Positions 9,250 through 42,261 of a stretch of DNA of 64,000 nucleotides are shown piece after piece. The stretch is taken from positions 32,402 through 96,401 of the forward strand of contig CAUJJC010000272.1 of the NCBI GenBank assembly GCA_963204975.1, read 5' to 3'. Position 1 is the stretch's first letter, and every line of letters starts with the position of its first letter. The translations under genes and the position numbers were made by a program. The notes below the pieces were generated by a model. The model worked only from the letters and a program-made list of their open reading frames with translations, did no database searches and was not told the DNA's origin. This stretch comes from Verrucomicrobiota bacterium. GTDB lineage: Bacteria; Verrucomicrobiota; Verrucomicrobiia; Verrucomicrobiales; Verrucomicrobiaceae.

Positions 9250-9257
9250 CGACGGAC

Positions 9258-10799
<1,542 letters not shown>

Positions 10800-22957: not shown

Positions 22958-25357
22958 TCACGGCTTCGCCCGTGCCAGCTTTTGCAAGTCTGGGAGCTGA
23001 AGCTGGAGGGTTTTCATTAACTGCTCGCTCTCTGATGTGTGTCGGCGTTCAGACCCGAGAGTATTTAAGTCGGCAATCGCACGCTCGATCTCCCTCAGCA
23101 GCCTTTGTCCCGTCTCGGGTGGCGGCACGGTTGTGGCATAAGCCTGGAGCGTCTCGGTCACGTAGTGCTGACGAAGGCGGGCCGCCTCCACCACGGCGGC
23201 AGCGGCTTCTGTCTGGAGCTGCGACAGAGCCGGATAGTCGCGTGCCAATTCGAGGGCGGACTGCGCTGCCGCATCGCCCCACTGGATGGCCTTTTCAAAA
23301 GCCGCCGTGGCGGATTGGGCGCTGCCTTTTCCCAAGCTGGCGGCGGTCGATGCCAGCGTGCGACCATTGAGGCTGAGCGAGCGCCGCAGACGGACATCCA
23401 AGGGGCTGGACGCGAGCATTTGCTCCAGCAGGCGGCGCTCTTGCAAAAGGCCCTCCTGCGCCTCTTTCCATTGCCCCAGGTCACCGCGTGCCGAGGCCTG
23501 CTTGGCGAGGCTGCCAGCGAGATGCCGCGAAGACCGCTTTCCATCTGCCAATCGAAGCCAGAGGGCGACCGCTGCGGAGTAATTCGGCAAGGCCAACGCG
23601 GGCTGCGCTTCGTGCATGGCCACGTCCCCAAGACGCTCGTGGGCGATGGCGAGCAGGTCCGGTGGTGCCTCGCGAGCCTGTAACAGATCGAAGGCAGATT
23701 GATACCATGCCTTGGCCTTGGGCCAGTCCTCCAGGAGTTGATACGCCAGCCCGATGCGGTCCTTGGCCTGAGCCAGATCGCTATGGACGGAAGCAACGCC
23801 AGGATATTTTTCCGCGCGCTTTTCGAGATGGCGGTGGAACTCGGTGAAGAGCTTGAGCGCCTTGGCATAATCGCCCTCGGCCACGGCGATCAGGCCCGCA
23901 TTGTGATAGGCGGCTGCGCGGTTCCTTTGCTGCTCATCGGTGTCCTGGCGTTCGTCGAGTTTTTCGAAATAGCTGATGGCTTGCTCGGCGGGATGCTTGA
24001 GCACGCCTGCTTGATTCACGGCATCAAGGCGGTCCCGCAGATCATAGATGATGTCGTTGATCAAACCCTCGGCGGTGAGGCGGGCGGTGTCGGCAGTCTT
24101 CCGCGCTGCCTCGGCCGCCAGACGAGCCTGGGACTCGGCATCGCGTGCAGCCAGGGCTTTTTGTTTTTCCTGCTCGGCGAGCTGGCGTTGAGCGGATGCT
24201 TCATCGCGAGCGGCTTCGGCGGCGGACTTCTGCTGAAGGGCTGCGTTGCGTTGCTCGCGAGCGTCATCGCGGGCAAGCTCGGCTTCGTGCCGAGCCACCA
24301 CTGCTTCCTGGCGCTGCCAGATGGCTAGGATGCTGCCGCTGACAATTGAGATGAGCAGCAAAACCACGAGCCAGTGGCGCTGCACGAACCGAGTGGCGGC
24401 GTAGCCGAGGGTGTAGGGTCGGGCCTCCACGCACTGCCGGGCAAGGAAGCGGCGCAAGTCGCGAGCGAGGCTGGCTGCGGATTCATAGCGAGCATCGGGC
24501 TGGCGTTGCAGCGTGCGTCGGATGATCCAGTCCAAGTCGGTTCCTGTGCTGGTGCTCGGCGCAGGCTCGTCAGCACTGGTGGCTTCGGGCGGCATCGCCC
24601 CGGCGACCATCTTGTAAAGCATCACGCCGAGTGAGAACACATCGGACGGGGCCAGGACTTCGCGCCCTGCCATTTGCTCGGGGCTGGCGTAGCCACGGGA
24701 GTAGCCCACCAAGTAGGGCGTGCCAGGTGCCAGCGATGCGGAGTCGCTGATGTCGCGCGCGATTCCCCAGTCGATGATCTTCACTGCGGGACTGGCATCG
24801 GGCAAGGTGGTGACCAGCACGTTGGCAGGTTTGAGATCGCGATGAACGACGAGACGAGCGTGTGCAAAAGCGAGGCCGTGGCAGACCTGGATGAAGGGCT
24901 CCAGCTTGTCCGGCCAACGACTTTTTTGGGCGCACCAGTCCGTTATGTGAATGCCGTTCTCCACATACTCCATCGCATACCAGGGGACGCCGTCCTCATC
25001 GCCACCATCGAAGTAGGCGACGATGGCGGCGTGGCCGTGGAGCTTGCGGAGGAAGTCCCGTTCTTTGGTAAACCGCGCGACAATCAGATCCGTCTCCGCA
25101 CCTGCTCCGCGCTGAGGGCATTTGATAACGACACGCACGCCATACTTCAAATGCCGGGCGAGGCGCACCACGCCCATGCCGCCCTGCTGCTCCTCGGACA
25201 AGGGCGCGGACTCGTCCCACTCGTATCGATCTGCGAGACGGCTGAAGTCTAGCATAGGAACCACCAGCCGCTGCATCTCGGACGACGGATGGTGAGCACG
25301 CATGGCGCGGAGTTCATCCGTCCCATACTTCGTGGTTGGTCGATCCGTCTCGTTCAT
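22958..25357 (-). CDS. Ser/Thr protein kinase with TM helix, long coiled coil and TPR-like C-terminus
   Basis: GGMGVVRLA...VVIK, VVHRDLKPANVLV, KIIDWGIARD, GYASPEQMAG, TM HWLVVLLLISIVSGSILAIW, TPR-like tail. Confidence 0.93.
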   Translation of the reverse strand: MNETDRPTTKYGTDELRAMRAHHPSSEMQRLVVPMLDFSRLADRYEWDESAPLSEEQQGGMGVVRLARHLKYGVRVVIKCPQRGAGAETDLIVARFTKERDFLRKLHGHAAIVAYFDGGDEDGVPWYAMEYVENGIHITDWCAQKSRWPDKLEPFIQVCHGLAFAHARLVVHRDLKPANVLVTTLPDASPAVKIIDWGIARDISDSASLAPGTPYLVGYSRGYASPEQMAGREVLAPSDVFSLGVMLYKMVAGAMPPEATSADEPAPSTSTGTDLDWIIRRTLQRQPDARYESAASLARDLRRFLARQCVEARPYTLGYAATRFVQRHWLVVLLLISIVSGSILAIWQRQEAVVARHEAELARDDAREQRNAALQQKSAAEAARDEASAQRQLAEQEKQKALAARDAESQARLAAEAARKTADTARLTAEGLINDIIYDLRDRLDAVNQAGVLKHPAEQAISYFEKLDERQDTDEQQRNRAAAYHNAGLIAVAEGDYAKALKLFTEFHRHLEKRAEKYPGVASVHSDLAQAKDRIGLAYQLLEDWPKAKAWYQSAFDLLQAREAPPDLLAIAHERLGDVAMHEAQPALALPNYSAAVALWLRLADGKRSSRHLAGSLAKQASARGDLGQWKEAQEGLLQERRLLEQMLASSPLDVRLRRSLSLNGRTLASTAASLGKGSAQSATAAFEKAIQWGDAAAQSALELARDYPALSQLQTEAAAAVVEAARLRQHYVTETLQAYATTVPPPETGQRLLREIERAIADLNTLGSERRHTSESEQLMKTLQLQLPDLQKLARAKP

Positions 25358-25368
25358 GCGTCGGCGGC

Positions 25369-26040
25369 TTAACGAGGCAACACGACAGGTGCCATGTCCA
25401 GCAGTGCCGCCGTGGAGGTGCGCCTGCCGAGGCTGATGGGTGCGAGGGCATCTGGATCAATGCTGCCAGGGATGGTGATGCGGGCGTCCTTGGGCAAACT
25501 CGCCGCAGGCACATCGAGATCGAAGGTGCTGCGGGCAACGTGCGCACCCTCCGCAGACAAGCGGCCGAACGTGACGCTGGGAGGCTCCGAAGGGCTGCGC
25601 ACGACCACGGCCACCTTGTCCCAGGCTTTGAGAATCGAGGCCACGGCCTCACGGCGCTCTGCTTCATCGAGAAGGCGCGCGGCCCGTGCGGCGGCGGCAC
25701 GATCAGGCATGGCGGCAATCGCCTTGCGCTGTGGTTCGTGCAGGGCGCGCAGGCGCACGAGTTCGATGGATACGAGAGCATCGAACTTTCGCCGCAGGGC
25801 AAGTGCGATGAGGTCCCTCTCGGCATCCTGAAGCGTGCGGCGCGTGCGGATCACTTTGGCCACAGCCACGACATCGCTCAGCCGGAGTGGCTGTGAGGGT
25901 GAGAGATGAACGGCGGTCACTTCGTCACGACCAAACATGGGCTGATCGAGATCTTCTTCACTCAATGGTGTCACCACGCATCCCGACAGGCCGCACGCCG
26001 CGCCGATCAGCCAGAGGTGCGATGGCAGTCGCGTGATCAT
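25369..26040 (-). CDS. Hypothetical lipoprotein
   Basis: LIGAACGLSGC lipobox; 4-bp overlap with sigma-FHA gene; 12 bp before the kinase gene. Confidence 0.7.
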   Translation of the reverse strand: MITRLPSHLWLIGAACGLSGCVVTPLSEEDLDQPMFGRDEVTAVHLSPSQPLRLSDVVAVAKVIRTRRTLQDAERDLIALALRRKFDALVSIELVRLRALHEPQRKAIAAMPDRAAAARAARLLDEAERREAVASILKAWDKVAVVVRSPSEPPSVTFGRLSAEGAHVARSTFDLDVPAASLPKDARITIPGSIDPDALAPISLGRRTSTAALLDMAPVVLPR

Positions 26041-27164
26041 TCGCCTGAGGCATCCAGAAACACGAACTCGGCCACACCAGCGCGGATGACGTCGCCATTG
26101 ACGAGCAGCCTGGACTGAACGGCTCCGAGATCATTGACCTCCACGGGATTGGTCGCACTCCGGTTCGTGAGGAGGAGGAATTCGCCTTCGGGTGCCACCT
26201 GGAAGTGCTCGCGGCTCACCCCCGACAGGCCCATCACCTGCCAGGCAGCCTGGGCACCGCGGCCCACCGTCCAGCCGGAATCAATCACCCGGCACTCCAC
26301 GCTGCGATCACGGAGCAGCACCAGCACGGGCTTGTCATGCAGAGCGGGATCGATCTGGTAGCGCAGCCTCTCGATCATGAGGAGACGATCCTGGACGCCC
26401 CGGAGATCGGGCTGCTGAATATCGCCCGCATCAGGATAGGCACGGAGTTTTCGCACCAGGGCTTCGTTGGCCTCGGCACCCGAGGGCTGGAAGACCGTGG
26501 TATCGCTCGCCTCTCTCGCATAATGATCAGCGCTGATCACGAGGATGGCACGCCGGAGCTGCTCCAGGAAACGATCACGCCTCTGGTAGGCTACATTGAG
26601 GTTGGTGTGAAACACCTTGGCCACATAGGCGGCTTCGTAGCGATCCAGCACATAGCCATGCAGCGCATCGAACTCCGCGTGGCTGTATTTGCTGCGCACG
26701 CGGTCGAGGGCCACATCGAGCACAGCCAGCTCCAGCCGAGCTTCATCGGCATCCTTCATCACCGCTTCTTCAAGATCGAGTTCCGGGATGGAAAGAAAGT
26801 CCGAAAGGCAACGCCCGTCCGCGCCGGGAATCGGTGCATCGAGGGACTCGCCGAGGCGCTTGGCATTGCTCGCGCGGCGGCGGAAGGCACGATGAATTTC
26901 GAAGCGCACGATGGAGAACACCCAGGTCCTGAACTTCACGCCATCGCGGCGATGATACATCCCGGTGGCGAGCATTTCGAAGACCTTGGACATGGTCTCC
27001 TGCACCACGTCCATGGCCTCACTTTCATCCAGCCCGTGACGCCGGGCAAAGGCGATGATCTGAGGTGCCAGCCACACGTAGAGATCGTGGCAGTCGCGGC
27101 GGCTCTGGTCTCTGCCGCGCAAGCGGTCCACCAAGGTGTAGCGAGTGTTGTTGTCGGCGCTCAT
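26037..27164 (-). CDS. Sigma-70/ECF-type sigma factor with C-terminal FHA domain
   Basis: Region 2-like LAPQIIAFARRHGLDESEAMDVVQETMSKVFEML...KFRTWVFSIVRFEIHRAFRRR; region-4-like part; C-terminal WTVGRG...GVSREHFQVAPEGEFLLLTNRSATNPVEVND...LLVNGDVIRAGVAEFVFL fits FHA. Confidence 0.85.
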   Translation of the reverse strand: MSADNNTRYTLVDRLRGRDQSRRDCHDLYVWLAPQIIAFARRHGLDESEAMDVVQETMSKVFEMLATGMYHRRDGVKFRTWVFSIVRFEIHRAFRRRASNAKRLGESLDAPIPGADGRCLSDFLSIPELDLEEAVMKDADEARLELAVLDVALDRVRSKYSHAEFDALHGYVLDRYEAAYVAKVFHTNLNVAYQRRDRFLEQLRRAILVISADHYAREASDTTVFQPSGAEANEALVRKLRAYPDAGDIQQPDLRGVQDRLLMIERLRYQIDPALHDKPVLVLLRDRSVECRVIDSGWTVGRGAQAAWQVMGLSGVSREHFQVAPEGEFLLLTNRSATNPVEVNDLGAVQSRLLVNGDVIRAGVAEFVFLDASGE

Positions 27165-27204
27165 GATGCAGAACCGGCCAGGGTCACGGGTTTTAGGACA
27201 GGAA

Positions 27205-28209
27205 TCATGGGGCTGAGTGCGAGGGGTTGTAAAGTGAGGAAGCCGCGAAGGTGATATTCTCCACCGAGGCCTCCAGCGACTGACGGAGCAAAGGATCGCC
27301 TGCCATTTGAGCGGTGGCCAGGAGCCGTTCGCGCAAGATGGGAGACCGGATCTCGCGCAAGGCCTTCAGCACGGGCTGCACTTGTTCAGGCGTGGCCTCT
27401 GGAAGGGTGGCATGGTGCAGCAGCGCATCGAGGCTGGACTCATCACCGATGCTGGCTAGGCCGGAGGCGGCAGCGGCCCGGAGGTCTGCATCCTGCTGTC
27501 CGGCGTCCAGCAAGCGCACCAGTGCCGGAGCGGCGGCAGAGGTGCCCACGGTTCTGATGGTGTGCATGAGACGTTCGCGGGCATCTGCCTGAATCGCGGG
27601 ATCGTGCAGCAGTTCCTGCAGGTGCAGAATCGTGTCCTCATCAGCGCTGCGAGCAATCGCATCACTCGCAGCATTGACGAGCACCGCATCACCACCGAGG
27701 GCGATCAAGGAGGTAACCAATTCGCGCCCCTCACGATCCACGCCGACATAGCCTTTGAGCGCAGCGGCGATGAGTTGCCGAGTCTCCGCATCCTTCGTCT
27801 GATGGAAGGCATCAGACAGCGCCTGAAAGGCATCGGCATGATCCATCGCGACCAAGGAGACGGCGAGTGTCTGCCTCTGCTCAGCGGTGCCGCGCTGAAT
27901 CTGATGAACGATTTCGCGGAGCTTCGTGGATCGCTCCTGGTCGTTCATTTCGCGAATCAAGCCCGGCATGTGCGGTGTGTCATGCTGCGCTGGATTTTCA
28001 GAGTGATCACTCGATGCGCCCACCTGCTCACCCATGACCACTCCGCTCGACATTGCCACGGGAGAACCCGAAGCCGTGGAGGGAGCCGCACGGGGAGGAA
28101 TCACCGGGGTCATCTCAAGCCGTGGGCCACTGTCAAACACCTGCCAACCAATGGCAAAGATGACGGGGAGGGCGGCTGAGAAACCAAGGATTGCCGTGCG
28201 AGTGGTCAT
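27205..28209 (-). CDS. HEAT-repeat-like protein with N-terminal TM segment
   Basis: Start MTTRTAILGFSAALPVIFAIGWQVF at 28209; alpha-helical repeats such as APALVRLLDAGQQDADLRAAAASGLASIGDESSLDALL. Confidence 0.7.
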   Translation of the reverse strand: MTTRTAILGFSAALPVIFAIGWQVFDSGPRLEMTPVIPPRAAPSTASGSPVAMSSGVVMGEQVGASSDHSENPAQHDTPHMPGLIREMNDQERSTKLREIVHQIQRGTAEQRQTLAVSLVAMDHADAFQALSDAFHQTKDAETRQLIAAALKGYVGVDREGRELVTSLIALGGDAVLVNAASDAIARSADEDTILHLQELLHDPAIQADARERLMHTIRTVGTSAAAPALVRLLDAGQQDADLRAAAASGLASIGDESSLDALLHHATLPEATPEQVQPVLKALREIRSPILRERLLATAQMAGDPLLRQSLEASVENITFAASSLYNPSHSAP

Positions 28210-28234
28210 GGGAAGCAAAGGGGTGGAAGGTGAA

Positions 28235-28675
28235 TCACTGAATGGTAAGAGCGGCGTAGGGGAGCGGCTGGGCAAACATGTTGTTCCCCGTGAACTCGGC
28301 GATCACGATATTCCGCCCTGCGGTGGCCCAGGTGCTGACCAAGAATTTGCACCGCGCATAACCATTGGCATCTGTGTAAACAGAAGTGCCCACACGGGAA
28401 TTCGGATACGTGGGCGTTCCGAAGTAGAAGGAGATAGCGGCAGTCTGAACGCCCGCGCCATTGTCCAGACGTGTGAGCCGTGCGGTGGCAGTGACATACG
28501 TGCCCCTTCGAGCGGTCGTGGTGGAGAGTGATAGAGACATCTGCGTGGGGATCTGGTTGAGCCAGTAGGCAGCCTCAGCGGATGAGGCCGCACCTAGACC
28601 CAGGGCACCGCTAACGATGGCGGCGACGGCATTGCGGCGATTGACTGGAAGGGAGGTATCGGTGTCGGTTTTCAT
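28235..28675 (-). CDS. Secreted Ig-like domain protein with twin-arginine-like signal
   Basis: NRRNAVAAIVSGALGLGAASSAEA signal; body SLSLSTTTARRGTYVTATARLTRLDNGAGVQTAAISFYF resembles bacterial Ig-like folds. Confidence 0.65.
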   Translation of the reverse strand: MKTDTDTSLPVNRRNAVAAIVSGALGLGAASSAEAAYWLNQIPTQMSLSLSTTTARRGTYVTATARLTRLDNGAGVQTAAISFYFGTPTYPNSRVGTSVYTDANGYARCKFLVSTWATAGRNIVIAEFTGNNMFAQPLPYAALTIQ

Positions 28676-28714
28676 ATAGGATTGAAGTGAAGGGTGATGG
28701 AGAGGCCTTGATGG

Positions 28715-28745
28715 TTCAGGCCAGGAAGTGGGAGTTTCTTATGGG
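28715..28745 (-). promoter_or_regulatory. Shared upstream motif, copy 1 (upstream of the secreted Ig-like/HEAT/sigma-FHA/lipoprotein/kinase unit)
   Basis: Plus-strand TTCAGGCCAGGAAGTGGGAGTTTCTTATGGG; minus-strand CATAAGAAACT...CTGGCCTGAA, 39 nt before ATG at 28675. Confidence 0.6.
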
Positions 28746-28808: not shown

Positions 28809-30794
28809 CTAGAATTTCACGACGAGCTTGTAGGCTCCAGGACCGCCTCCGTAGGAGCGCACGCGGATGAAGTAGTAGCCACGGTCCACCTTGATCCGGC
28901 AGCGGAAGTTGCCATTGCCCGCACTGTCGTTGTTTTCAGTGAGGAGCTTGTAGTTGCTACTCGCACCACCGTAAATGTGACCATAGGTGTTGGTGCTGCC
29001 AGAGGTGTAGCAATCGAGATAGCCACTGGTCGGGCAGTAAACGCGGAAGATGTCATTGTCCCGCTCATACTCGAGGGAGCCATTGGTGGTAGAGTTCAGA
29101 GAAAGCGCCTTGTAGTTCGGAACTTCATTGGGAGCATCATCGGCGGTGATAATGCCAGTGCCTTGGACCTTGAACGTCATCGTGGGCACGCCTGGATCGC
29201 TTGTGGTGAATTTCACCAAACAGCTGTGGGTGCCCTCGCGAATGCCTGCGTAACGAATGGTCAGTGTGGTGGACTGCCCTGGGCTGAGGAGGGCCGCATT
29301 GCGAGTGACAATGGTGAAACGATCAGGATGGTCACCACTGAGATTGGCCAGGCCAAGATTGAGCCCGGAGCCGCCTTGATTCTTGATGGTGAAACTGCGG
29401 GTGATCCCTGGTGAATTGACCACCGAGATGCTGCCGAAGTCCGTGCTGTCTCCGGTCCAGGGAGTGAGGTCATTATTGGCAATCTGATTGTTATTGCCGA
29501 AGACGGCGAGCTTGGCAGGGGCTGGTTGTCCGCCCAGTGCCTTCGCCAGATTGAGGCGTCCGCCCGTCGCAGTGCGGCCATTGAACGCAGCCACTTTGTC
29601 CACCGTGGAGAGGATGCGTTGCCTGATATTCTGCCATGACTCGGCTGGAGATACGGCCCAGATCAGAGCGACCGCACCGGCGACGTGAGGTGCCGCCATC
29701 GAAGTGCCACTGATGGTGTGATAGGTGCCGCCAAGCCAAGTTGAGATGATGTCTTGCCCAGGCGCGACAAGGTCCACATCCGCACCGTAGTTGGAGAACC
29801 AAGCGAGCGTGTCCTGACGATTGGAAGCACCCACGCTGATGATGTTGGCATTGGGAAACGAGGCAGGGTAGCTCGGGCTGGTGCCAGTGTTTTTCGCATC
29901 ATTGCCAGCGGCTGCGCAGACTATGATGCCAGCGCCTTCGAGCGCATTCATCTGTGCTTCGAGGAAGGACGAGCGTCCAGTGCTGCCCCATGAGGCATTG
30001 ATGACTTTGGCTCCCATTTTTTGCGCATACTTGAGCACTTCAATGGCGTCACTGATGGACCCGCCACCGGAGGCATCAAGGAACTTGAGGTGCATGATGC
30101 GCGCCAGATGGCTGACTCCTGCACAGCCGATGCCATTGCCGCCCTGGGCTCCAATGGTGCCTGCAGTGTGTGTGCCGTGGCCATTGTCATCCAGCGGAGG
30201 ACGGGAACGATTCACCACATTGATGCCGTGAATATCATCCACGTAGCCATTGCCATCATCATCGAGATTGTTGCCCGCAATCTCACCGTGGTTGATCCAA
30301 CGATTATTCACCAGGTCGGGATGAGTGAGGTCACCTCCAGTGTCGGTATTGGCGATGACAATGGAACGGGAATCCCTGGCAACATTCCAGGCCTCGGGTG
30401 CATCAATGTCGATGTCGTTAGTCTGATGCATACCCCATTGCTGGGCGAACAACTGGTCGTTCGGAATAGCCGACGCCGTAACAAGGTAGTCCGGCTCAAC
30501 CGCATCGTAGAGACCGCTGGCGCGGTATTCTGCGATTACTTTGTCGATCACCGCCGTGGGTTTGACCTTGACCCTAACAAAGCCCACCGTGCCAAACGAT
30601 TCCACCGCGAGAGCGGCAGATCTTGTGTGAGTGCCTTGGAGAGCGGCAGCCGAAGCTGTGGCCTTAGGTTTGAGCAGGACGCGACCAGCGATGCACTTGG
30701 CACCGTTGACAGTCACGATGGCAGTTTGACTGCGCACCGAGGAGAGCGGCGCAATGGCCGCCAGTAGGATAGCGAGAGCTGTGGGGAGCTTCAT
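28809..30794 (-). CDS. Secreted S8 family (subtilisin-like) serine peptidase with C-terminal PPC-like domain
   Basis: Catalytic IVIANTDTGGDLTHPDL, DDNGHGTHTAGTIG, SGTSMAAPHVAGAVALI; C-terminal NSTTNGSLEYERDNDIFRVYCPTSGYLDCYTSGSTNTYGHIYG. Confidence 0.93.
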   Translation of the reverse strand: MKLPTALAILLAAIAPLSSVRSQTAIVTVNGAKCIAGRVLLKPKATASAAALQGTHTRSAALAVESFGTVGFVRVKVKPTAVIDKVIAEYRASGLYDAVEPDYLVTASAIPNDQLFAQQWGMHQTNDIDIDAPEAWNVARDSRSIVIANTDTGGDLTHPDLVNNRWINHGEIAGNNLDDDGNGYVDDIHGINVVNRSRPPLDDNGHGTHTAGTIGAQGGNGIGCAGVSHLARIMHLKFLDASGGGSISDAIEVLKYAQKMGAKVINASWGSTGRSSFLEAQMNALEGAGIIVCAAAGNDAKNTGTSPSYPASFPNANIISVGASNRQDTLAWFSNYGADVDLVAPGQDIISTWLGGTYHTISGTSMAAPHVAGAVALIWAVSPAESWQNIRQRILSTVDKVAAFNGRTATGGRLNLAKALGGQPAPAKLAVFGNNNQIANNDLTPWTGDSTDFGSISVVNSPGITRSFTIKNQGGSGLNLGLANLSGDHPDRFTIVTRNAALLSPGQSTTLTIRYAGIREGTHSCLVKFTTSDPGVPTMTFKVQGTGIITADDAPNEVPNYKALSLNSTTNGSLEYERDNDIFRVYCPTSGYLDCYTSGSTNTYGHIYGGASSNYKLLTENNDSAGNGNFRCRIKVDRGYYFIRVRSYGGGPGAYKLVVKF

Positions 30795-30872
30795 GGGAGT
30801 AGTATGTTTGGAGTGATGAAGCCCGGCGCTGTGAGGGCGTTGTTACCAGCGTCAGCACCGGGGCTTGTGAAT

Positions 30873-30903
30873 TCATGCCGGTGCCCCAGAGGTTCTTATG
30901 CTT
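30873..30903 (-). promoter_or_regulatory. Shared upstream motif, copy 2 (upstream of S8 peptidase gene)
   Basis: Plus-strand TTCATGCCGGTGCCCCAGAGGTTCTTATGCT; minus-strand CATAAGAACCT...CCGGCATGAA, 78 nt before ATG at 30794. Confidence 0.65.
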
Positions 30904-31068: not shown

Positions 31069-34000
31069 CTAAGGCGACGGGCTGATCGTTGCCAGACCAG
31101 AAGTGGAGGGCATCCACACTGCCGTATTGCCAGCAGGCGGAACATCTGGCGTGAGATGGAATCCACGCGCCACTTGACCCGATGGTGCCTGAACCAGCAC
31201 GCCTCGAAAACTCGAAACCAGCGAGACTTCACCTGTTTGATTCAAGTTCTGGCGTCGCGTGGTCAGCGTCCCAAAGAACACACCATTCGCCGGCGTGAAG
31301 GTGAAGGTCACGGCTTGTGTGGAGCCCATCGTTGCCGTCGGACCTGGCAGCCCTCCAGCTTTCAGGGTCAGCAGTGCTTTCGCTGGTGTGAGGAAGCTGG
31401 AATGCGTGAGTTCGAGCGTGGCATTGAAGGGCTTGTCAGCGAGGCCCAGCACCCATTCGGTGGCGGCTGGCTTCGTGTATCGTGCGCCCGTGCAGCTCAA
31501 GCCCAGCGGTCCGAAGCCCTGGTAATGAACAAGCGAGTTCGTGAACCATTGCGGAATGCGCTTCCAGTGAAGATAGCCGCTCAGCGATTGATCAGAGGCA
31601 ACCGTCAGTCTGCCTGCAACAGCATCCGCCAAGGCCGACGAGTGGTAGATCGCCACCTCCCCACCAGGGCCGATGTGCGTGGTGCCGGTATAGACGACGC
31701 CGTCAGCCAGGCAGCCGCTGATCGTGACGATGCCCGCAACCGATGTGCTCAGCGTGACATAACCTTCGCCTTTGGGGCCAGGGCTCGTCAGTTCACTGCG
31801 TGCGAACGTTCCTGTGAAGAGCCCGTCACGGCCACCCGCAGTCGGCATCTTGGGCCATAGCATGAAGGACGCCTCGCTGCTTCCGAGGTTCACATGGCCG
31901 AACAAATGCACATTCCCATTCGCCCCAAAATCGAACGCAATCGTCAGAGGCACATCGCTGTAGGGCAATGTGATCGTCGCCGTCCCGATGACGATCGAAC
32001 TGCCTCGGGAGGCCATCACCCATCCGCTCACTGAATAGGAGTAGTAGCCCAAGTAGAGCTTCCCTGTCCATGACCCTGTGGGAGTGATGGTGACGTCAAA
32101 GCGTCCACCCACGCCGTTATTGATGTCCTCATCAGGATCGACGGTGCCTGTGAAAGTGCCTGCGGCTCCCGAGGGAAGGGCATCAATGGTGAAGTGCAAA
32201 TACGTGCTCACCTTCCCAGCAATATTCGCACCCGTCATTCGGCAGACCAATGGCGTGGTGATTGCCTGGAGCGGGCGTCCGGTGATCCTTCCCGTAACGG
32301 CGTTGAGCTTCAGCCCAGATGGCAGGCGGTCGATACTATAGGATGAAGGACGCACGGCCTGGGACTGATCGAAAGGTGGTGCCAGATCTGTCTCCTGACC
32401 CATCATCAAATTGACCGCTGTAGGCACAGCCGAAAGAGGCAGCGGCAAACGCATGATACGAAGGCTGTGGATGGCAGTCGGAAACGTGCCAGCCGCACAG
32501 GTCACCTCACAGGTGTAGTCAGCCTCATCTCCAGGAGCCAGCTTCCGAACGATTAACGATGCCGAAGTCGCTCCCGTGATCCGGGCATCCGTGGTGACCG
32601 GCACGCCGCCACGCATCCAACGAAACGACAGTCCTGGACCCGCCGCAGGCACGGTCATGATCACCGTTGCGCCCGGCAGTGCGGACCAGCTCCTGGCTCC
32701 CAGATCAGCCACCACCACGGGCACTTCCTGGCCCAGCGTGGTGCCAGCGCTACCCGTTACCCGCAGTCGATAAGTGCCCGCGTGAGACACGAGTGCGCTT
32801 GGGACGCCATAGGCCTGACCGATAGCGCCAGCGATGGCGAGATTGTTCTTGAGCCATTGGTAAGCAGCAGATTGTTCGGTCAACACAGGCGCTTGCAGCA
32901 GCAGCGGACGCCCGGCTTGAATCATCATCGCTGATGGCTGCGATGCGAACTGGACCTCATCATCGACAATCCGAATCACATGCTGCCGCCGGGAGCCAAG
33001 GATCGCTCCGGTGGACGGATCGCCCAAACGAAGCGTGATGCTCTCCCGGCGCTCTATCTCCATGTCCGCCGTCAGCTTGATCGCGATGACGGCTGTGACC
33101 TGGCCACGAGCAAACGAGATCGTGCCAGATGTCGTGGTCGTGTAGTCCACACCCAAGGTGGCAGGCCCTTCGAAAGTGATGGGAACCGAAAAGGCTACGG
33201 CAGGCGCAGGCGATGCCGTGACATAGACATTCACCGTGCCTGCGGACTCTGCTTTGCTCGTCTCCACCTGGGTGAACTGCACTTGCGTGACTAGCTTCAG
33301 TTGGCTGGAGATGACGTTGCTCACCGCACCCGCCTCATTCGAGCCTTTCCGCCGGATGCGGAGGCGCATCCACTGCGTGGGTGAGGTGTCGATCACGGCT
33401 GTCGAAGCCACCTCGATCAACTCCGCAGTATCGACGAGTGTCGCGGTGTCGGGTTCGCCGCTGCGCCAGTTCACAAGGTCATTTGAAACTTCCACGATGT
33501 AATCCAGATCGCTGCGCTGGCCTTGATAAAGGCGCACGCTGAGCACCAGATGGCGTCCGCCGGGTGTGAGATCACCTTCGTTGCCGACCGAAAACAAGCC
33601 GGTGCTGCTGGTGCCGGTCGTGATGGTGTCGATGCGGGCCACTGGTTGCGCACCCGTGTTGCGCACGAGTGGAGCCGTGCCGATGGCGTATTCCAGAAGG
33701 TTGCACAAACCATCGCCATCGGGATCAGCGAAGGAATCGGTGTAGAGCGGACTGGATTGCTGGCTGATGCCGAACTGCGACAACTGCCACGAGCTGGAGG
33801 CCAGCGTGGTATCATAGGACGACACGCTCATCGCCACTCCACCGAATCCGGCGACGGTGATGGGAATCGCGCTGCTGATCTCGCCATTGCCCAGCCCACC
33901 ATGCCAGTTATCCCCCCAAGCGAAGACTTCCCCTGTGTCCGAGAGCGCATACATGCAGGAAGGACTGGCGGACAGTTGCGTGATGCGAGGCAGTCCGACG

Positions 34001-37000
34001 ACGAGCGCTGCCTTGAACGGAGGCACCTGCACTGACGGTGGCAGCGCACGCCCAAGGATTCGTGGCGAATCGCCCCAGGCCCAGACGCGGCCCAGCGAGT
34101 CTAGCGCGAAGACCGCATCATTGGCGATGAACACCGACGAAATGAACGGCAGACCTGCCACCTTGCGCGGCACGGAGATGGCCTTGGCGTAGTCGTAGTT
34201 GGCCTGAGCGGCCCAGTCCACATGACCGAATTCCCATACGGAACCATCGGCGAGGAGCACCACACTTGTCGCATCACCAGCAGCTAGCTGGACCGCACCC
34301 GAGATGCTAGTCACTGGCACTGGAGTGAGACGGTCCACGATGGTGCCGTCACCGAGCTGGCCACGGCTGTTCCGTCCCCAGGCATACACGGTGCCATTCC
34401 GAGTGCGCGCCAGCGTGTGGGCACCTCCGGCGGCGACTTCAACAACGTCGGCCAATCCGTTGACGGTCACCGGCAGGCGACGGTCCGTCGTCGTGCCATC
34501 GCCCACCTGGCCGCGATGATTGCGGCCCCAGGCTTGCACCGTGCCATCGGCCAACGCTGCCACGGCATGATGCGTCATATCAGAGAGTTCGTCTTCGCCG
34601 CTGCTGGCGGAATAGGAAACGACGGTGCCTGCCACGGGCACTTGTCCAGCGAGTTCCGGTGAGGAGGGGCCAGTGCCGAGTTCCTCCACTGGCAGACCGA
34701 GTTCGCCATACCGATTCCAGCCCCAGGCCCAGAGGGTGCCATCGGGCTTTCGAGCGAGCGTGAAGGGCGTGTTCCGATGGGCGGCCACGGCCGACTCCAT
34801 GGCTGGGAATCCAGTGAACGGCTGTGGTTTCATCTCCTCGGGGCTGTTGCCCTCCCAGGCTCCGCCCCACGTCACCCAGGTGCCGTCGGTCTTGCGTGCC
34901 ATGCCGTTCCAGAGCGGGGCCATCCGGTCGATTTGGCTCAGCCCTTCGATCCGCGCAGGTATGGCCCGAGTGCTGGAGACGCCGTTGCCAAGCTCTCCAG
35001 CCACGTTCCTGCCCCAGGTCATGATTTGGCCGCTTCCGGTTGTTAGGACGGTGGAGAAGCGATTGCAGGCGAAGGAGCCCACGCCCTCGGTGAAGTCATA
35101 GGGCAGACGCTCCGGCGCGATCCAGGATGGGTTCGGACCCCTGCCCAGACTGCCGAAGAGATCGTCTCCCCAGGTCCAGATGTCTCCTGAGGCATCCATC
35201 GCGACGGCGAACAACTCACCAGCGGAGATGTAAACGATGTCACTCAGCGCCTCGAACTGACGGGGCTCACGAGCTTCTTCAGGCCAGTGACTGGAAGGCC
35301 CCGCCCCCATGCCACCCCAATACCACACCGTGCCGTCTTCACGCACAAAGTAGGCCGTGTGTCTGTCTTCATACGGCGAGAGGGTGCTGGCGATGAAGGT
35401 CACCTCGGTCAGGTTGGGAATGGGCTGCGGCACCGTCACTGGCATATCGGTGAACTGGTCGTTGCCCCACCACAGGACCGTTCCATCAGCCCGAATCGCA
35501 AAGGATCGGTAGTGCCCCGCAAAGACCATCACGGCATCCGTGATGCCCTGCACTTTGACAGGTGTCCGGGATGAAATAGTGGTGCCATTGCCCAACTGTC
35601 CTTCTTCGTTCTTGCCCCACGCATAGACACTGCCGTCCTGATTGGCGATGACGACGTGACCATCGGCCGCAGCAATCCAGATCGCCTGCGGTTGTGATCC
35701 TGAATCCCACAGACCTGTCACTTGCACGGGCTGACCACTCTGTCCAAAACCGCCATACAGGCTGCCACCAAAGCCCCACACCGTGCCGTTGCTGCGAAGC
35801 ACATAGGAGGCATCTCCCTGGGCGGCCACCATGATGGCATCGTCGATGCCGGGCACGATCACAGGCAAAGGGCTCTCCGCTTCGGGCCATCCATAAGGGC
35901 CAGCCTTCGGGCCGTTCGGGCCGAGCTGTCCATGTCGATTGCTGCCCCAGGCGAAGACCTGCCCTCCATAAATCGCCAGCGTGTAGTCGTTGCCTTTGGC
36001 CACCCGTCCGGCCATCCCCTGCCCGATGGCCATCGCACGCGTCGTCTCCCCCACACCACCGGTGCTGCCGCCGCTGCCCACGAGGTTAGGGGCGTAGAGG
36101 CGGTCCATCACCTTGGCCAAATCCAGTCGCCCGCCAGACAGGCACTTGCCCTTCAGCTTGGTCGATGGCAGCGCCTGCTCGATGATGATCTGGCGTGCCT
36201 GCCGCTCATCGAGGTCTGGTGCCCACATGCGAAGCAAGACCGCTGCACCGCTGACGAAAGGTGCCGCGCCGCTCGTGCCATTGCGTGCCTCATACGTGGT
36301 GCCGCCTGCGCGTGCGCCCCAGATGGTGGTGCCACCCGCAAAGATGTCCACGGTCAGAGCCCCGTAATTGGTCCCGGCTCCTCCCCAGACACTGGGTGCA
36401 TCGGTGGCATCACAGGCACCCACGCTCAAGACGTAGCCACTAGGCACGCAAGCTGGGAAGACGGGGAAACGATCACAATTGGCCTTCGAGTTTCCGGCAG
36501 CAGCCACATGAAGCACTTTGTAGGAGACAGGTTCCACCGGGTTGGAAAACGTCAGCGGCGTCGCCGTGCGGGCGAGGGTGGTGTAGTTGCTCAGTGTGAT
36601 GCTGTTGCTGCCGAGGAGCGTGATCACCGTCTTCGCGGGAATCCCGCTGCCTGTCACCGTCATGCCCACGCGCAGCTTGGCGAGTTCCATGGCACTGCCT
36701 TGGGCGATAATGACATTCTTGTCCTTGGCGAAGGTGGAGGTCAGCCCAGACGGCAGCGGGTCGAGGGTGAGGCGGGAATTGTTGATCACATTGAAGAGCG
36801 CCCGTGAGTAGCCCTGCCCTCCCCAGCTATGATTGCACACGGCCACCTGCTGGCTCTGGAGGTTGAGGCGCTGCACGCAGTTCAGGGCACCGATGGCCGC
36901 GTCATAGGTTCCGTAGGTGCCCACGAGCCTTTTCGTTTTCAGATCGTAGAGGCCTTTGATGATCTTGAGCGGAAACAGCTTCACATTCCAGGCCACGCCG

Positions 37001-38223
37001 GTGAGGCCCAGGCCGTTGTTGCCCTTGGCTCCAATGATGCTGGCCACCCAGGTGCCGTGCCCCACATCGTCCGTGATGAGACTGTTGCCATCCAGGAAGT
37101 TGAACCCACGCACATTGTCCACCGCGCCATCCTGGTCGTTATCCAGGCCATCCGATTCACGGCCCTCGCCGGACTCACCGGGATTGATCCACCATTGGCT
37201 GGCCAGATCAGGATGATTGAGATCGCCGCCCGTGTCCAAGACCACCACAACGTGGCTGTTGGCCATCGCTTGATCCGTATGACCACGAAAAACATCCCAG
37301 CCCTTCTCCGCTCCCATCTTTTTCAGGAACCACTGCGGTCCGGGATTGGTGCCCGCGTAGCCAGGGTCATTGGGAACGGTGGCACTGCCAGCGGTCAGAT
37401 AGTTCGGCTCGGCAAAGGCCACCTCCTCCAGGCTCTCGAACATGGACCGGGCGGACTCGACTTCCAGGCCGAGACTGCGCTCCCATTTCACGAGGTAGAG
37501 CCCCTGCAACGACAAAGGCCGCGCGACCTGCACGCCCGGCGGTAGCACCTTCGCCAGACGCTCCTGCGTTACTCCTGCCTCGGCCTGCACCATCATGCAG
37601 TCCATGGCCAGGGCGTTTTGCCAGAGCTTTCGCGACGAGGGCGATGACGAGGAGGAAGGCGAATCCTGGGGAGCAGACGCACTCGCTAGGACCACCGGAT
37701 CCGCTTGTTCCGACGAGGGAGTGCTGAGGGCGCTGCTAGCCTGCGGTGCAACTACCGCTACAGGTGAAGATGCTTCGAAAATCTCATCCACGCGGACGTA
37801 GGGCACGCTGAATCCAGGAATCGCATAAACCGAGCGCACACGGCGCAACGGAGTGGTCTCAGGAAGATCAAATCCGGCGCGCACATCGGGCTCGCCCGCC
37901 ATGGGCAGGTAGCTCAACTCCTCGCGGCGCTCCAGCCTGCCCGCCCTCGCAATGCCATCGAAGGGCATCGCCGCCACTTCTATCGGTTCTGTCGGCAACG
38001 AACTCGCAGCCGCAACGGCAGGCGAGGCCGAACGTTCATCTGCATCCAACAGACGAACGACTGTCGATTTGACGGCACGATCCTGGTTCGTGCTCTTCAC
38101 CTTCGTGGTGTGAGATGGCGAAGCGCCCGTCAGGTTCCAGAAGACGAGACTCACCACGACTAGCCCCAGGACAAGCAGGACTCGCCGAAGCACAAGAGGT
38201 AGCTTTGCAGGTGTTGCAGACAT
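31069..38223 (-). CDS. Giant secreted/surface S8 serine peptidase with RCC1 repeats, Calx-beta-like and Ig-like domains
   Basis: 2384 aa; N-terminal TM; catalytic VVVLDTGGDLNHPDL, DVGHGTWVASIIG, NGTSGAAPFVSGAAVLL; about 10-12 RCC1-like units (e.g. VYAWGKNEEGQLGNGTTISSRTPVKV). Confidence 0.92.
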   Translation of the reverse strand: MSATPAKLPLVLRRVLLVLGLVVVSLVFWNLTGASPSHTTKVKSTNQDRAVKSTVVRLLDADERSASPAVAAASSLPTEPIEVAAMPFDGIARAGRLERREELSYLPMAGEPDVRAGFDLPETTPLRRVRSVYAIPGFSVPYVRVDEIFEASSPVAVVAPQASSALSTPSSEQADPVVLASASAPQDSPSSSSSPSSRKLWQNALAMDCMMVQAEAGVTQERLAKVLPPGVQVARPLSLQGLYLVKWERSLGLEVESARSMFESLEEVAFAEPNYLTAGSATVPNDPGYAGTNPGPQWFLKKMGAEKGWDVFRGHTDQAMANSHVVVVLDTGGDLNHPDLASQWWINPGESGEGRESDGLDNDQDGAVDNVRGFNFLDGNSLITDDVGHGTWVASIIGAKGNNGLGLTGVAWNVKLFPLKIIKGLYDLKTKRLVGTYGTYDAAIGALNCVQRLNLQSQQVAVCNHSWGGQGYSRALFNVINNSRLTLDPLPSGLTSTFAKDKNVIIAQGSAMELAKLRVGMTVTGSGIPAKTVITLLGSNSITLSNYTTLARTATPLTFSNPVEPVSYKVLHVAAAGNSKANCDRFPVFPACVPSGYVLSVGACDATDAPSVWGGAGTNYGALTVDIFAGGTTIWGARAGGTTYEARNGTSGAAPFVSGAAVLLRMWAPDLDERQARQIIIEQALPSTKLKGKCLSGGRLDLAKVMDRLYAPNLVGSGGSTGGVGETTRAMAIGQGMAGRVAKGNDYTLAIYGGQVFAWGSNRHGQLGPNGPKAGPYGWPEAESPLPVIVPGIDDAIMVAAQGDASYVLRSNGTVWGFGGSLYGGFGQSGQPVQVTGLWDSGSQPQAIWIAAADGHVVIANQDGSVYAWGKNEEGQLGNGTTISSRTPVKVQGITDAVMVFAGHYRSFAIRADGTVLWWGNDQFTDMPVTVPQPIPNLTEVTFIASTLSPYEDRHTAYFVREDGTVWYWGGMGAGPSSHWPEEAREPRQFEALSDIVYISAGELFAVAMDASGDIWTWGDDLFGSLGRGPNPSWIAPERLPYDFTEGVGSFACNRFSTVLTTGSGQIMTWGRNVAGELGNGVSSTRAIPARIEGLSQIDRMAPLWNGMARKTDGTWVTWGGAWEGNSPEEMKPQPFTGFPAMESAVAAHRNTPFTLARKPDGTLWAWGWNRYGELGLPVEELGTGPSSPELAGQVPVAGTVVSYSASSGEDELSDMTHHAVAALADGTVQAWGRNHRGQVGDGTTTDRRLPVTVNGLADVVEVAAGGAHTLARTRNGTVYAWGRNSRGQLGDGTIVDRLTPVPVTSISGAVQLAAGDATSVVLLADGSVWEFGHVDWAAQANYDYAKAISVPRKVAGLPFISSVFIANDAVFALDSLGRVWAWGDSPRILGRALPPSVQVPPFKAALVVGLPRITQLSASPSCMYALSDTGEVFAWGDNWHGGLGNGEISSAIPITVAGFGGVAMSVSSYDTTLASSSWQLSQFGISQQSSPLYTDSFADPDGDGLCNLLEYAIGTAPLVRNTGAQPVARIDTITTGTSSTGLFSVGNEGDLTPGGRHLVLSVRLYQGQRSDLDYIVEVSNDLVNWRSGEPDTATLVDTAELIEVASTAVIDTSPTQWMRLRIRRKGSNEAGAVSNVISSQLKLVTQVQFTQVETSKAESAGTVNVYVTASPAPAVAFSVPITFEGPATLGVDYTTTTSGTISFARGQVTAVIAIKLTADMEIERRESITLRLGDPSTGAILGSRRQHVIRIVDDEVQFASQPSAMMIQAGRPLLLQAPVLTEQSAAYQWLKNNLAIAGAIGQAYGVPSALVSHAGTYRLRVTGSAGTTLGQEVPVVVADLGARSWSALPGATVIMTVPAAGPGLSFRWMRGGVPVTTDARITGATSASLIVRKLAPGDEADYTCEVTCAAGTFPTAIHSLRIMRLPLPLSAVPTAVNLMMGQETDLAPPFDQSQAVRPSSYSIDRLPSGLKLNAVTGRITGRPLQAITTPLVCRMTGANIAGKVSTYLHFTIDALPSGAAGTFTGTVDPDEDINNGVGGRFDVTITPTGSWTGKLYLGYYSYSVSGWVMASRGSSIVIGTATITLPYSDVPLTIAFDFGANGNVHLFGHVNLGSSEASFMLWPKMPTAGGRDGLFTGTFARSELTSPGPKGEGYVTLSTSVAGIVTISGCLADGVVYTGTTHIGPGGEVAIYHSSALADAVAGRLTVASDQSLSGYLHWKRIPQWFTNSLVHYQGFGPLGLSCTGARYTKPAATEWVLGLADKPFNATLELTHSSFLTPAKALLTLKAGGLPGPTATMGSTQAVTFTFTPANGVFFGTLTTRRQNLNQTGEVSLVSSFRGVLVQAPSGQVARGFHLTPDVPPAGNTAVWMPSTSGLATISPSP

Positions 38224-38226
38224 GGC

Positions 38227-40032
38227 TTAGAACGCAGGACGCGTGTTGTAAGGATGCTGGGTCAGGCCACCGCCCGTCGTGAGTGTGCCGTGGGTTCCAT
38301 TATTGTATTGGTGCTGGTTCGAGTGGACGCTGGCGCTGCCCGACACGCTCACCTGGCTGCCCGTATTCACGCGCACCTTGTCCCCGGAGATCACCGCGTG
38401 AGGAGTGGTCAACTGCACCTGGCCGTCGAACACGACAGCGCCCGCGCCCTCGGCATACAGGCGCATCTGCACGTCAGCATCGTAACTGCCACCACGAATG
38501 AACAAGGCATCGCCCGCACCGGCCCAGCCACGCACTCGCAGCACGCGTGCCGACATCGTGGCGTCGAGCAGAGTCACCTTTCCACTACTCACTCCATCAC
38601 CGGCCAAGGCGTCGATGGTGAGCGTGCCTTTGTCGGCACGCAGAGTCGAGGCCGACACCAGCACATCGCCCCCTCCTGAAGCGAGACTCACATGCTCGAT
38701 CAAGGACAGCAGTTGTGACGACTGCTCAATGGTGATGCTGGTGGGCACGGTGATCTCGCCCACGCTCAACCGACGGTTCGCTGTGACCTCGCTGGCGGAG
38801 ATGTGGACCGCTTGCGGTGCAGTCGCCGTGGAACTCCCGCCGATGGACACCGTCCCGCCACGCAGGGTGCTGTTCGCAATGATCACGTCACCCGTTGTCG
38901 CGTGCAGGTGCAGCAGCTCACTCACGTCCAGTGCATCCCCGGCTTTCAAGACGCTGCCCGTCACCTCCAGCGCTGGTGCGATGAACTTGAGCGCCACATC
39001 GGGCGGAGTCAGCACATTCGCCGTGTCCACATCGACGACTGTCACCGAGGAATCGGTGGTGCTGAACTCCAGTGTTCGGTCGGTGCCGCCAAACAGATCG
39101 GCATCCGCGCGCAGGGTGCCGTGAATTCGCGGCTGCATGAGGGTGACGCCATTGTCCACGGCACTCAGCTTCACCCGATAAAGCTGAGTAGCGGCACCAT
39201 CGCGAAAAAATGTGGTGTTGCCCACATCGAAATACCCGATGCCGTCGTCGTGCTCCCTCACGGCAAGCACCGCCTCAGGATTATCCTCACGATTTGTGAC
39301 CGAGAAGATGGTCGCTTCATCGCGCGGCAGCGCTGCGCTTGCAGCGGTGCTCGCAGGAGCCGCAGGGCGAACAAGCGCCAGCTCAGGCGATGCTCCCCGC
39401 ATCAAGAAGGGCGTCATCCGCAGCGAGCCGGAGTCCAAAGCCATCTGCTGGCCCGCGATGGCTGCATCCATCAGCGCCTGGGTGCTGAGCGGCCCCAAGC
39501 CGTTCGTGAGCGTGCTGGTGTCTGCGAGTCGGCCCAGATCGACCTGCACAGGCGAGGGCAGCGCCTTGGCCGTGGGCTGCACCAGCAGTTCATCGCCTGC
39601 CTGCAGAGTCACACTTTCGCCGAGCAAGGACTGGAGCGCGATCTCCACGGTGCCTTCGCGGCAGATGAACTTCACCCACCGCCCTGGAAGGTAGAGCGCC
39701 AGCACGGTCCCTGTTACCCGCATTCGGAAGTTAGGCATCGAGACAGGGATTGATCGACGGCGCGCAGCGGGATCGCTCCCGACCAGCACGAGACCGCGAT
39801 CCAGCGCCACACCTCCGTTCTTTGTCAGGCGCACCTCCGTGTTGGAGCCCGTGATCAGGAAGCCCGCATCGCCTGCGAGCTTGGCCCGGCTCTTTTGTCC
39901 GGTGCTGAATGCTGCGCCCTCGGCCAGATGCGCTCCTGCTCTGGCACTCGCCTTGCCCACGACGCGCTCGACCGTGGCGCTTTGAACGGCACCGGCGACG
40001 ACGAGCAGCAAAAGCTGGAGAACTTTGTTCAT
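38227..40032 (-). CDS. FecR domain-containing protein
   Basis: VERVVGKASARAGAHLAEGAAFSTGQKSRAKLAGDAGFLITGSNTEVRL...MRVTGTVLALYLPGRWVKFICREGTVEI; start MNKVLQLLLL at 40032. Confidence 0.85.
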   Translation of the reverse strand: MNKVLQLLLLVVAGAVQSATVERVVGKASARAGAHLAEGAAFSTGQKSRAKLAGDAGFLITGSNTEVRLTKNGGVALDRGLVLVGSDPAARRRSIPVSMPNFRMRVTGTVLALYLPGRWVKFICREGTVEIALQSLLGESVTLQAGDELLVQPTAKALPSPVQVDLGRLADTSTLTNGLGPLSTQALMDAAIAGQQMALDSGSLRMTPFLMRGASPELALVRPAAPASTAASAALPRDEATIFSVTNREDNPEAVLAVREHDDGIGYFDVGNTTFFRDGAATQLYRVKLSAVDNGVTLMQPRIHGTLRADADLFGGTDRTLEFSTTDSSVTVVDVDTANVLTPPDVALKFIAPALEVTGSVLKAGDALDVSELLHLHATTGDVIIANSTLRGGTVSIGGSSTATAPQAVHISASEVTANRRLSVGEITVPTSITIEQSSQLLSLIEHVSLASGGGDVLVSASTLRADKGTLTIDALAGDGVSSGKVTLLDATMSARVLRVRGWAGAGDALFIRGGSYDADVQMRLYAEGAGAVVFDGQVQLTTPHAVISGDKVRVNTGSQVSVSGSASVHSNQHQYNNGTHGTLTTGGGLTQHPYNTRPAF

Positions 40033-40036
40033 GACT

Positions 40037-40993
40037 CTAGAATCGGGCATTGAAGAACAGACCGCCGCCGGTCACGAGGTTGTCATAGTCAAAGAAGGAA
40101 ACCGATGAGCGGTTGAAGGTCATGCTGCCCATGATGCCCACCTTGGCCCAGGAGGTGACCTCGTAAGCGACGCCCAACTGAACGACGTGATTCCAGTCCT
40201 GGCGGTCCACTTCCCGATAGTGATGCCAGCCCGCGCGGTAGCTGCCCGTGATGGTCAGGCGAGTGCGGAGCCGGAGCCGTGTGCCCGCATAGGCGCTGTA
40301 TTCATCGCGCCCAGGCCCAGCGGGCTCGGGAGCGAGGCTGATGTCCGCCATCATCCCGGCGACGAATTCTAGGCCGGACCTGGGTTTCCACAGCTTCTGA
40401 ATCAAGACGCTGGCGAGGTGATCATCGAAGGCGTGGCTGGTGAGATCGGATTGTGAAATGCGATACCAGGACCAGCCCGCGCTGATCATGGTGCGCAACG
40501 CAGGCAGCTCGTAGGTCAGGGCCAGATCGGACCGGGTGAGGTTGAAGTCGAGGGCGCTGAAGCGGTCGTGCAAATACACATGGCTGGCCACGCTGGCATT
40601 CACACTCCAGGGGCCAGCGATGCGGTTGTTGTATTGCGCGGTCACTCCACCTCGAAGGTAGGCATCCCCCAGCTCACCGTCCCTGGCCAGCCCCACGTTG
40701 TCGGTGTAAAAATACTGCGCATCAGCCTCGACGAGCCAGGGCTCCCACTCGGCCTTCACCTGCTTCTTGAGGAACCGCTGCTCGCCGATTTCTTCATCGT
40801 AGCCATGGAGGCCCGCTGCCTCATGGAGTAACGCGGGAGCGCCTTGGGAAGGAAGTTCCTTGGAGGCCGCTTGCAACGAGCGCAGTCCCCTCTCAGCCCG
40901 TGCATTCTCCAGGACGCTGGTCTCCTGGGCAGTCAAGGTGACTGCCAGGCACAACGGCCAAAGTGCTCGGAGAATGGACAGGGCTGATTTCAT
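40037..40993 (-). CDS. Outer-membrane beta-barrel protein
   Basis: Signal peptide, alternating amphipathic strands, C-terminal ...GGGLFFNARF ending in F. Confidence 0.75.
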   Translation of the reverse strand: MKSALSILRALWPLCLAVTLTAQETSVLENARAERGLRSLQAASKELPSQGAPALLHEAAGLHGYDEEIGEQRFLKKQVKAEWEPWLVEADAQYFYTDNVGLARDGELGDAYLRGGVTAQYNNRIAGPWSVNASVASHVYLHDRFSALDFNLTRSDLALTYELPALRTMISAGWSWYRISQSDLTSHAFDDHLASVLIQKLWKPRSGLEFVAGMMADISLAPEPAGPGRDEYSAYAGTRLRLRTRLTITGSYRAGWHHYREVDRQDWNHVVQLGVAYEVTSWAKVGIMGSMTFNRSSVSFFDYDNLVTGGGLFFNARF

Positions 40994-42121: not shown

Positions 42122-42152
42122 TTCATGCCCGGTCCCCGCAGAATCTTATGCT
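42122..42152 (-). promoter_or_regulatory. Shared upstream motif, copy 3 (upstream of the GH5/OMP/FecR/S8-RCC1 operon)
   Basis: Plus-strand TTCATGCCCGGTCCCCGCAGAATCTTATGCT; minus-strand CATAAGATTCT...CCGGGCATGAA, 59 nt before ATG at 42062; 24/31 identical to copy 2. Confidence 0.65.
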
Positions 42153-42261
42153 CTGGTTTGAAATATATTTCCGGCCCCACAAAAACGCCCTTCCAAGCCA
42201 TTCGAGAAGGCGACCGAGCACTTTCCCCGTGCTCGGCCCCGTTCTAGCACTACCTCTTTCC

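Follow-up and report, generated by a model that had tools for sequence, protein, structure and literature searches.

A predicted kinase-linked ECF sigma factor fused to an FHA domain, with a shared promoter-like motif, in a Verrucomicrobiota bacterium

Introduction

Many extracytoplasmic function (ECF) sigma factors adjoin genes for Ser/Thr kinases. To our knowledge, this link has been explained so far only by the phospho-switch of the ECF43 group. Here we describe a five-gene locus in a 64,000-nucleotide stretch of DNA (the window, positions 32402-96401 of a single contig, CAUJJC010000272.1) from the 6.18-Mb genome of a bacterium of the Verrucomicrobiaceae, called G000 below. The genes encode, in order of transcription, a small exported protein, a HEAT-repeat protein, an ECF sigma factor that ends in a forkhead-associated (FHA) domain, a lipoprotein and a Hanks-type Ser/Thr kinase (genes 1 to 5). 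We propose that the kinase, the FHA domain and the sigma factor may form a relay that carries an envelope signal to a promoter, with positive autoregulation and a local regulon of three units.

The best described relatives of such an arrangement are the ECF sigma factors associated with Ser/Thr kinases (ECF43 EcfP/PknT, EcfK/PknS and other predicted kinase-linked groups; PMC8999054, PMC13147305). EcfP and EcfK are both activated by kinases (PMC8999054). Like these systems, the window locus places an ECF sigma gene by the gene for a transmembrane Hanks-type kinase and has no adjacent anti-sigma gene; the gene that intervenes between sigma factor and kinase encodes the lipoprotein. Unlike ECF43, the window sigma factor is fused to an FHA domain, has a lipoprotein partner and has its whole detected regulon in one 20-kb locus. 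It also lacks the STTA-type phospho-switch, the DAED position of region 2.2 reading EAMD. Because there is no Ser/Thr phospho-switch at this position, we do not consider it a member of the ECF43 kind.

By analogy, the closest working parallel of the proposed relay is EmbR-PknH of Mycobacterium tuberculosis, in which the FHA domain of EmbR is required for interaction with the kinase (PMC4601284). Both systems pair a regulator with a C-terminal FHA domain (PDB 2fez/2ff4 for EmbR) and a membrane Ser/Thr kinase; EmbR regulates cell-envelope genes, as the window sigma factor is predicted to do. However, EmbR combines an OmpR-type DNA-binding domain with a BTA domain, and the DNA-reading parts of the two proteins are not homologous. 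Since sigma regions take the place of the OmpR-type domain, gene 3 does not belong to the EmbR family. A regulatory domain behind region 4 is also found in ECF41 (SnoaL), ECF42 (TPR) and CorE-type sigma factors (PMC3426412, PMC8999054), but in the window protein this domain is FHA. The two ECF reviews that we searched do not mention FHA, and we found no description of a sigma-FHA fusion or of sigma-FHA gene pairs in the literature searched. We place the window system among the kinase-linked ECF sigma factors, as a variant.

A sigma factor fused to an FHA domain

Gene 3 encodes an ECF sigma factor in which regions 2 and 4 are present and region 3 is absent. The helix-turn-helix of region 4 could be aligned, and the family profile covers solved ECF sigma factors through region 4 (e.g. 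8z6g, profile positions 23-223). The protein scores 40.2 against the TIGR02937 cut-off of 42.9 and is thus a divergent ECF member. In Pfam, the only match of the C-terminal part is to the FHA-like Yop-YscD_cpl model, and it falls below cut-off. An alignment of the window protein, its copy in the congener G084 (the sole congeneric genome compared) and three separate FHA genes described below bears out the FHA identity that had been claimed for it: the phosphothreonine-binding signature (G301, R302, S317, H320 and N339) is invariant in all five sequences. Moreover, the FHA profile matches FHA structures down to 6e-14, with EmbR, GarA and OdhI among its best PDB relatives. Judged from these comparisons, the C-terminal part of gene 3 is a genuine FHA domain.

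Distant relatives of the fused protein align with it over the full length but across stop codons, that is, as two adjacent genes, a sigma gene followed by an FHA gene. Such split pairs occur at eight loci in six families of the class Verrucomicrobiia, and the fused form in two genomes. Three of the pairs were found first (G102, G367 and a second locus of the congener, G084:C10), and a search with the split sigma factor added those of G064, G653, G400, G434 and G429. Because separate sigma and FHA genes adjoin at these eight loci, we regard gene 3 as a fusion of usual neighbours. That the two parts are fused here and adjacent elsewhere argues that they work jointly. The split pairs have homologous parts in the same order, but they consist of two genes rather than one, their neighbours differ (a caspase-PPC protein and others), and a kinase gene accompanies only some of them. 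For example, the gene run in G064 is sigma, FHA and then a gene with both an FHA and a kinase domain, and in G367 a kinase gene lies close to the pair.

In a sigma factor tree, the FHA-linked and kinase-linked sigma factors cluster (100/98). We take this as weak support, since long branches meet there; the extraction for the tree missed three FHA-linked sigma factors (L083, L084 and L096).

The split pair of the congener (L028:7349-8857 and 9007-10155) is divergent from the gene of a caspase (C14) protein that is exported and has PPC domains. A HEAT-like neighbour of this pair was dropped as shared content because it proved unrelated to the window HEAT protein (E 1.4).

Conservation of the lipoprotein and kinase genes

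The kinase has a cytosolic kinase domain with the catalytic residues of the Hanks type (VIK, HRDLKP and DWG), a single membrane helix at about residue 331 and, outside the cytoplasm, a part made up of coiled coil and TPR. Of the 288 genomes of the order, 13 encode a relative of the lipoprotein, the window genome included. In six further genomes the lipoprotein gene stands beside that of a related kinase, directly before it in G033, G131, G142, G156 and G200 and with one sigma gene between the two in G102. The kinases of the first five share homology with gene 5 that extends past the kinase domain. The gene order in G156 is sigma-lipoprotein-kinase; in G142 the sigma gene lies by a giant-protease unit, about 15 kb from the lipoprotein-kinase pair. 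These sigma factors carry no FHA domain. The lipoprotein-kinase pair thus occurs with different ECF sigma factors, and in two of the six genomes such a sigma gene stands beside it.

How far is the whole quintet conserved? Neighbourhood conservation of the five genes holds in part. Sigma factor, lipoprotein and kinase are associated in other genomes and, as judged from gene content, are the conserved core of the locus. Genes 1 and 2 had no relative by tblastn in the non-congener loci examined, and no genome-wide search was made for them. Gene 1 is 91% identical in the congener. The immunoglobulin (Ig) label originally attached to it found no support, there being no Pfam match at E 0.1 and no PDB sequence match below E 0.09. 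Its AlphaFold model is all-beta but of low confidence (pLDDT 39) and unusable; the protein is probably beta-rich. The identities proposed for the kinase, the sigma factor and the HEAT protein agree with Pfam (Pkinase, Sigma70_r2 and HEAT_2).

Two observations concern the lipoprotein-kinase loci of other genomes (L071-L077). The lipoprotein family, which has no Pfam entry, shares an LDxPMFG motif and is encoded directly before the Ser/Thr kinase (near it in G102); these gene pairs often stand behind a gene for a surface protein of 2000-3000 aa. A common block, TTACACTTGATNTTC ... CTTGACTC, precedes the sigma genes without FHA in G156 (L077, upstream of 6132) and in G142 (L076, upstream of 3827), and is possibly the promoter of that other type of sigma factor.

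A predicted operon and its shared upstream motif

The list of open reading frames confirms five genes on one strand with tight junctions (28675-22958, minus strand; Table 1). Genes 1 and 2 are 25 bp apart and genes 2 and 3 are 40 bp apart; genes 3 and 4 overlap by 4 bp, and genes 4 and 5 are separated by 11 bp, a gap first given as 12 bp. Downstream, a convergent plus-strand gene ends at 22943. The strong terminator predicted ahead of the unit was also recovered, with z -6.2 and none of 200 shuffles reaching -39.1 kcal/mol. The congener has a terminator at the equivalent place, with a different stem sequence (z -4.6). In the direction of transcription, the first copy of the promoter-like motif starts right after the terminator (28804-28751). 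From this arrangement we infer that the five genes are co-transcribed as one operon. No Rfam family was found in the region, and no plasmid relatives were found.

A short form of this motif, CATAAGA-N18-TGAA, was derived from the window alone and matches the window exactly at three sites, each on the minus strand. They are the only exact copies in the entire genome, in line with the original prediction that three units share it. With one mismatch allowed, four were found in the window against 0.25 expected by chance; the reversed pattern, used as a control, had one match in the window genome. A refined form, CATAAGR-N14-GGCMTSAA, was derived from six sites in two genomes. It has three matches in G000 and three in the congener, at orthologous unit starts, counts that are partly circular because the refinement comes from these same six sites. 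Across 66 other genomes of the family there were five stray matches. The reversed refined pattern gave none, and neither did a spacing control with the spacer lengthened by 1 bp (and a slightly different core pattern) in G000 or G084. One extra congener match (C6:84861) lacks the GGC core and fails the refined motif; we treated it as chance.

The loci of the window genome and the congener are syntenic, with 93% identity for the kinase, 96% for the lipoprotein and 91% for the sigma-FHA protein. Core identity between the two genomes is 15/15, 13/15 and 15/15 for copies 1, 2 and 3, and ungapped flank identity is 29/60, 48/60 and 25/60; copy 2 is thus conserved with two core changes. The GH5 gene that follows copy 3 in the window has suffered an internal deletion in the congener (C40 about 232800-232970, L027), which leaves a short frame with the first and last residues kept. 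Copy 3 is retained despite this loss and now heads the remaining genes of its unit (barrel-FecR-giant S8), which is the behaviour expected of a promoter under selection. Being unique in the genome, fixed in spacing and kept at 3/3 congener units, the motif is well supported by sequence as a promoter. That it is read by the sigma-FHA protein is less well supported.

Table 1. Coordinates and properties of the features in the window
Feature	Position	Strand	Remarks
Gene 1, small exported protein	28235..28675	-	146 aa; NRR twin-arginine-like signal, predicted beta-rich
Gene 2, HEAT-repeat protein	27205..28209	-	334 aa from ATG; Pfam HEAT_2 4.9e-08; hydrophobic N-terminus (signal/anchor-like)
Gene 3, ECF sigma factor (regions 2 + 4) with C-terminal FHA domain	26037..27164	-	375 aa; Sigma70_r2 4e-11
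Gene 4, lipoprotein	25369..26040	-	223 aa; lipobox LSGC; family without Pfam entry
Gene 5, Hanks-type Ser/Thr kinase	22958..25357	-	799 aa; Pkinase 1.7e-31, weak TPR
Intrinsic terminator of upstream S8 gene	about 28804-28751	-	-39.1 kcal/mol, z -6.2, then UUUUU
Motif copy 1, predicted ECF-type promoter CATAAGAA-N13-GGCCTGAA	28715..28743	-	40 bp before gene 1 ATG
Motif copy 2	30872..30900	-	78 bp before S8 protease gene ATG
Motif copy 3	42122..42150	-	60 bp before GH5 ATG, head of GH5-barrel-FecR-giant S8 unit
Secreted S8 protease with choice-of-anchor-D and PPC domains	28809..30794	-	predicted regulon member
S8 protease-RCC1-Calx-beta-Ig surface protein	31069..38223	-	2384 aa; predicted regulon member
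Exported FecR-domain protein	38227..40050	-	weak Pfam FecR; predicted regulon member
Outer-membrane beta-barrel (BBP2_2)	40037..40993	-	predicted regulon member
GH5 cellulase-family exported protein	41001..42062	-	Pfam Cellulase 6.3e-27; predicted regulon member

A proposed relay and its alternatives

How might these genes work together? We propose that the single-pass kinase, with the lipoprotein as its envelope partner, would sense an extracytoplasmic signal. The activated kinase, autophosphorylated on threonine, would be bound by the FHA domain of gene 3, and this docking, followed by phosphorylation or release, would alter sigma factor activity. The sigma-FHA protein would recognise CATAAGR-N14-GGCMTSAA and transcribe its own operon, giving positive feedback, together with two neighbouring units, the S8 protease gene and the GH5-barrel-FecR-giant S8/RCC1 unit. 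In this scheme we infer both the docking of the FHA domain on the phosphorylated kinase and the phospho-control of the sigma factor. For the relay as a whole, with its autoregulation and its three-unit local regulon, we estimate a probability of about 0.6.

Several points weigh against this relay. Both the fused sigma-FHA protein and the motif have been seen in just two genomes of a single genus, FHA and kinase genes are only sometimes adjacent in the split systems, and the AlphaFold model of the sigma-FHA protein is unusable (pLDDT 41). According to the original prediction, the motif would be the only upstream site for the sigma gene. However, a weak sigma-70-like match at 27233-27204 (9/12) stands immediately 5' of the sigma gene; the count of such matches in the region is not clearly above chance. 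The autoregulated operon as first interpreted is partly supported by the sequence. Moreover, the genome has other ECF sigma factors, any of which might read the motif.

With several further ECF sigma factors encoded and recognition by the sigma-FHA protein only predicted, the motif could be the promoter or operator of another regulator, either a different ECF sigma factor or a DNA-binding factor, and the sigma-FHA gene a target that acts elsewhere. However, the motif is limited to the locus itself and to the pair of genomes that encode the fused protein, and an autoregulated ECF sigma factor usually shows itself by a regulon centred on its own locus; we consider control by another regulator unlikely. 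Slightly less probable again is a relay of opposite sign, in which the FHA domain docks on a phosphothreonine within the same polypeptide and thereby holds the sigma factor inactive, as in GarA and OdhI, so that the kinase switches the system off. GarA and OdhI are among the best PDB relatives of the FHA profile beside EmbR, and the linker between the sigma and FHA parts contains a threonine pair (DTTVFQP) that offers putative phosphosites.

The motif could also be the promoter of this sigma factor while control runs through direct phosphorylation of region 2.2, as in ECF43 (EcfP/EcfK), with the FHA domain serving for docking only or being irrelevant. The adjacent Ser/Thr kinase gene, the lack of an adjacent anti-sigma gene and the kinase activation of EcfP and EcfK (PMC8999054) would fit such a switch, but the acidic EAMD motif offers no Ser/Thr at the switch position and the link of FHA to sigma genes recurs in several families, which makes this mechanism improbable. 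We give very little credence to an ordinary cluster with vegetative promoters, in which the motif would be a chance or merely inherited sequence: the two genomes do share recent common ancestry, but the clustering, spacing and selective conservation of the motif argue otherwise. An anti-phage defence role was rejected because the PADLOC matches were to generic kinase and subtilase profiles only.

The relay through kinase, FHA domain and sigma factor may have a wider meaning. Tentatively, and at slightly less than even odds, we suggest that it exemplifies a class of ECF signalling that has not been described before in Verrucomicrobiia. In this class an FHA domain, adjacent or fused to the sigma factor, would read whether a membrane kinase carries phosphothreonine and would thereby link sensing at the envelope straight to the sigma factor, with neither an anti-sigma factor nor a phospho-switch in region 2.2. 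Here it would serve a very small autoregulated regulon made up of secreted proteases and surface proteins. The sigma-FHA fusion, with split versions across a bacterial class, would then offer a concrete second mechanism for the link between sigma factors and kinases. The three-copy promoter motif makes the proposal directly testable by reporter.

Predicted regulon and neighbouring genes

What would the sigma factor control besides its own operon? The shared motif suggests a predicted regulon that adds the S8 protease gene and the unit of GH5, beta-barrel, FecR and giant S8 genes. The beta-barrel gene adjoins the FecR gene in several other genomes, relatives of the FecR-domain protein occur in 45 of the 288 genomes, and homologs of the giant S8 protease stand behind barrel-FecR in other genomes. 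This barrel-FecR-giant-protease unit has nearly the same genome set as the lipoprotein-kinase pair. In Verrucomicrobia, giant surface proteases and barrel/FecR proteins form a conserved set that has not been described, and the locus provides a candidate regulator for it. The gene for the exported FecR-domain protein (38227-40050) lies in a separate unit from the sigma gene, and the protein matches FecR below cut-off; no anti-sigma domain was seen in it.

A hairpin lies in the leader ahead of the S8 protease gene (window 30866-30810, minus strand; z -3.5); it seems to be preserved in the congener, where bases of the stem have changed. The plus-strand genes at 42148-43433, which diverge from the GH5 unit, are an O6-alkylguanine-DNA methyltransferase-like gene with a PCHRV motif and an AlkB-like gene, which by their sequence motifs look like a DNA alkylation repair pair.

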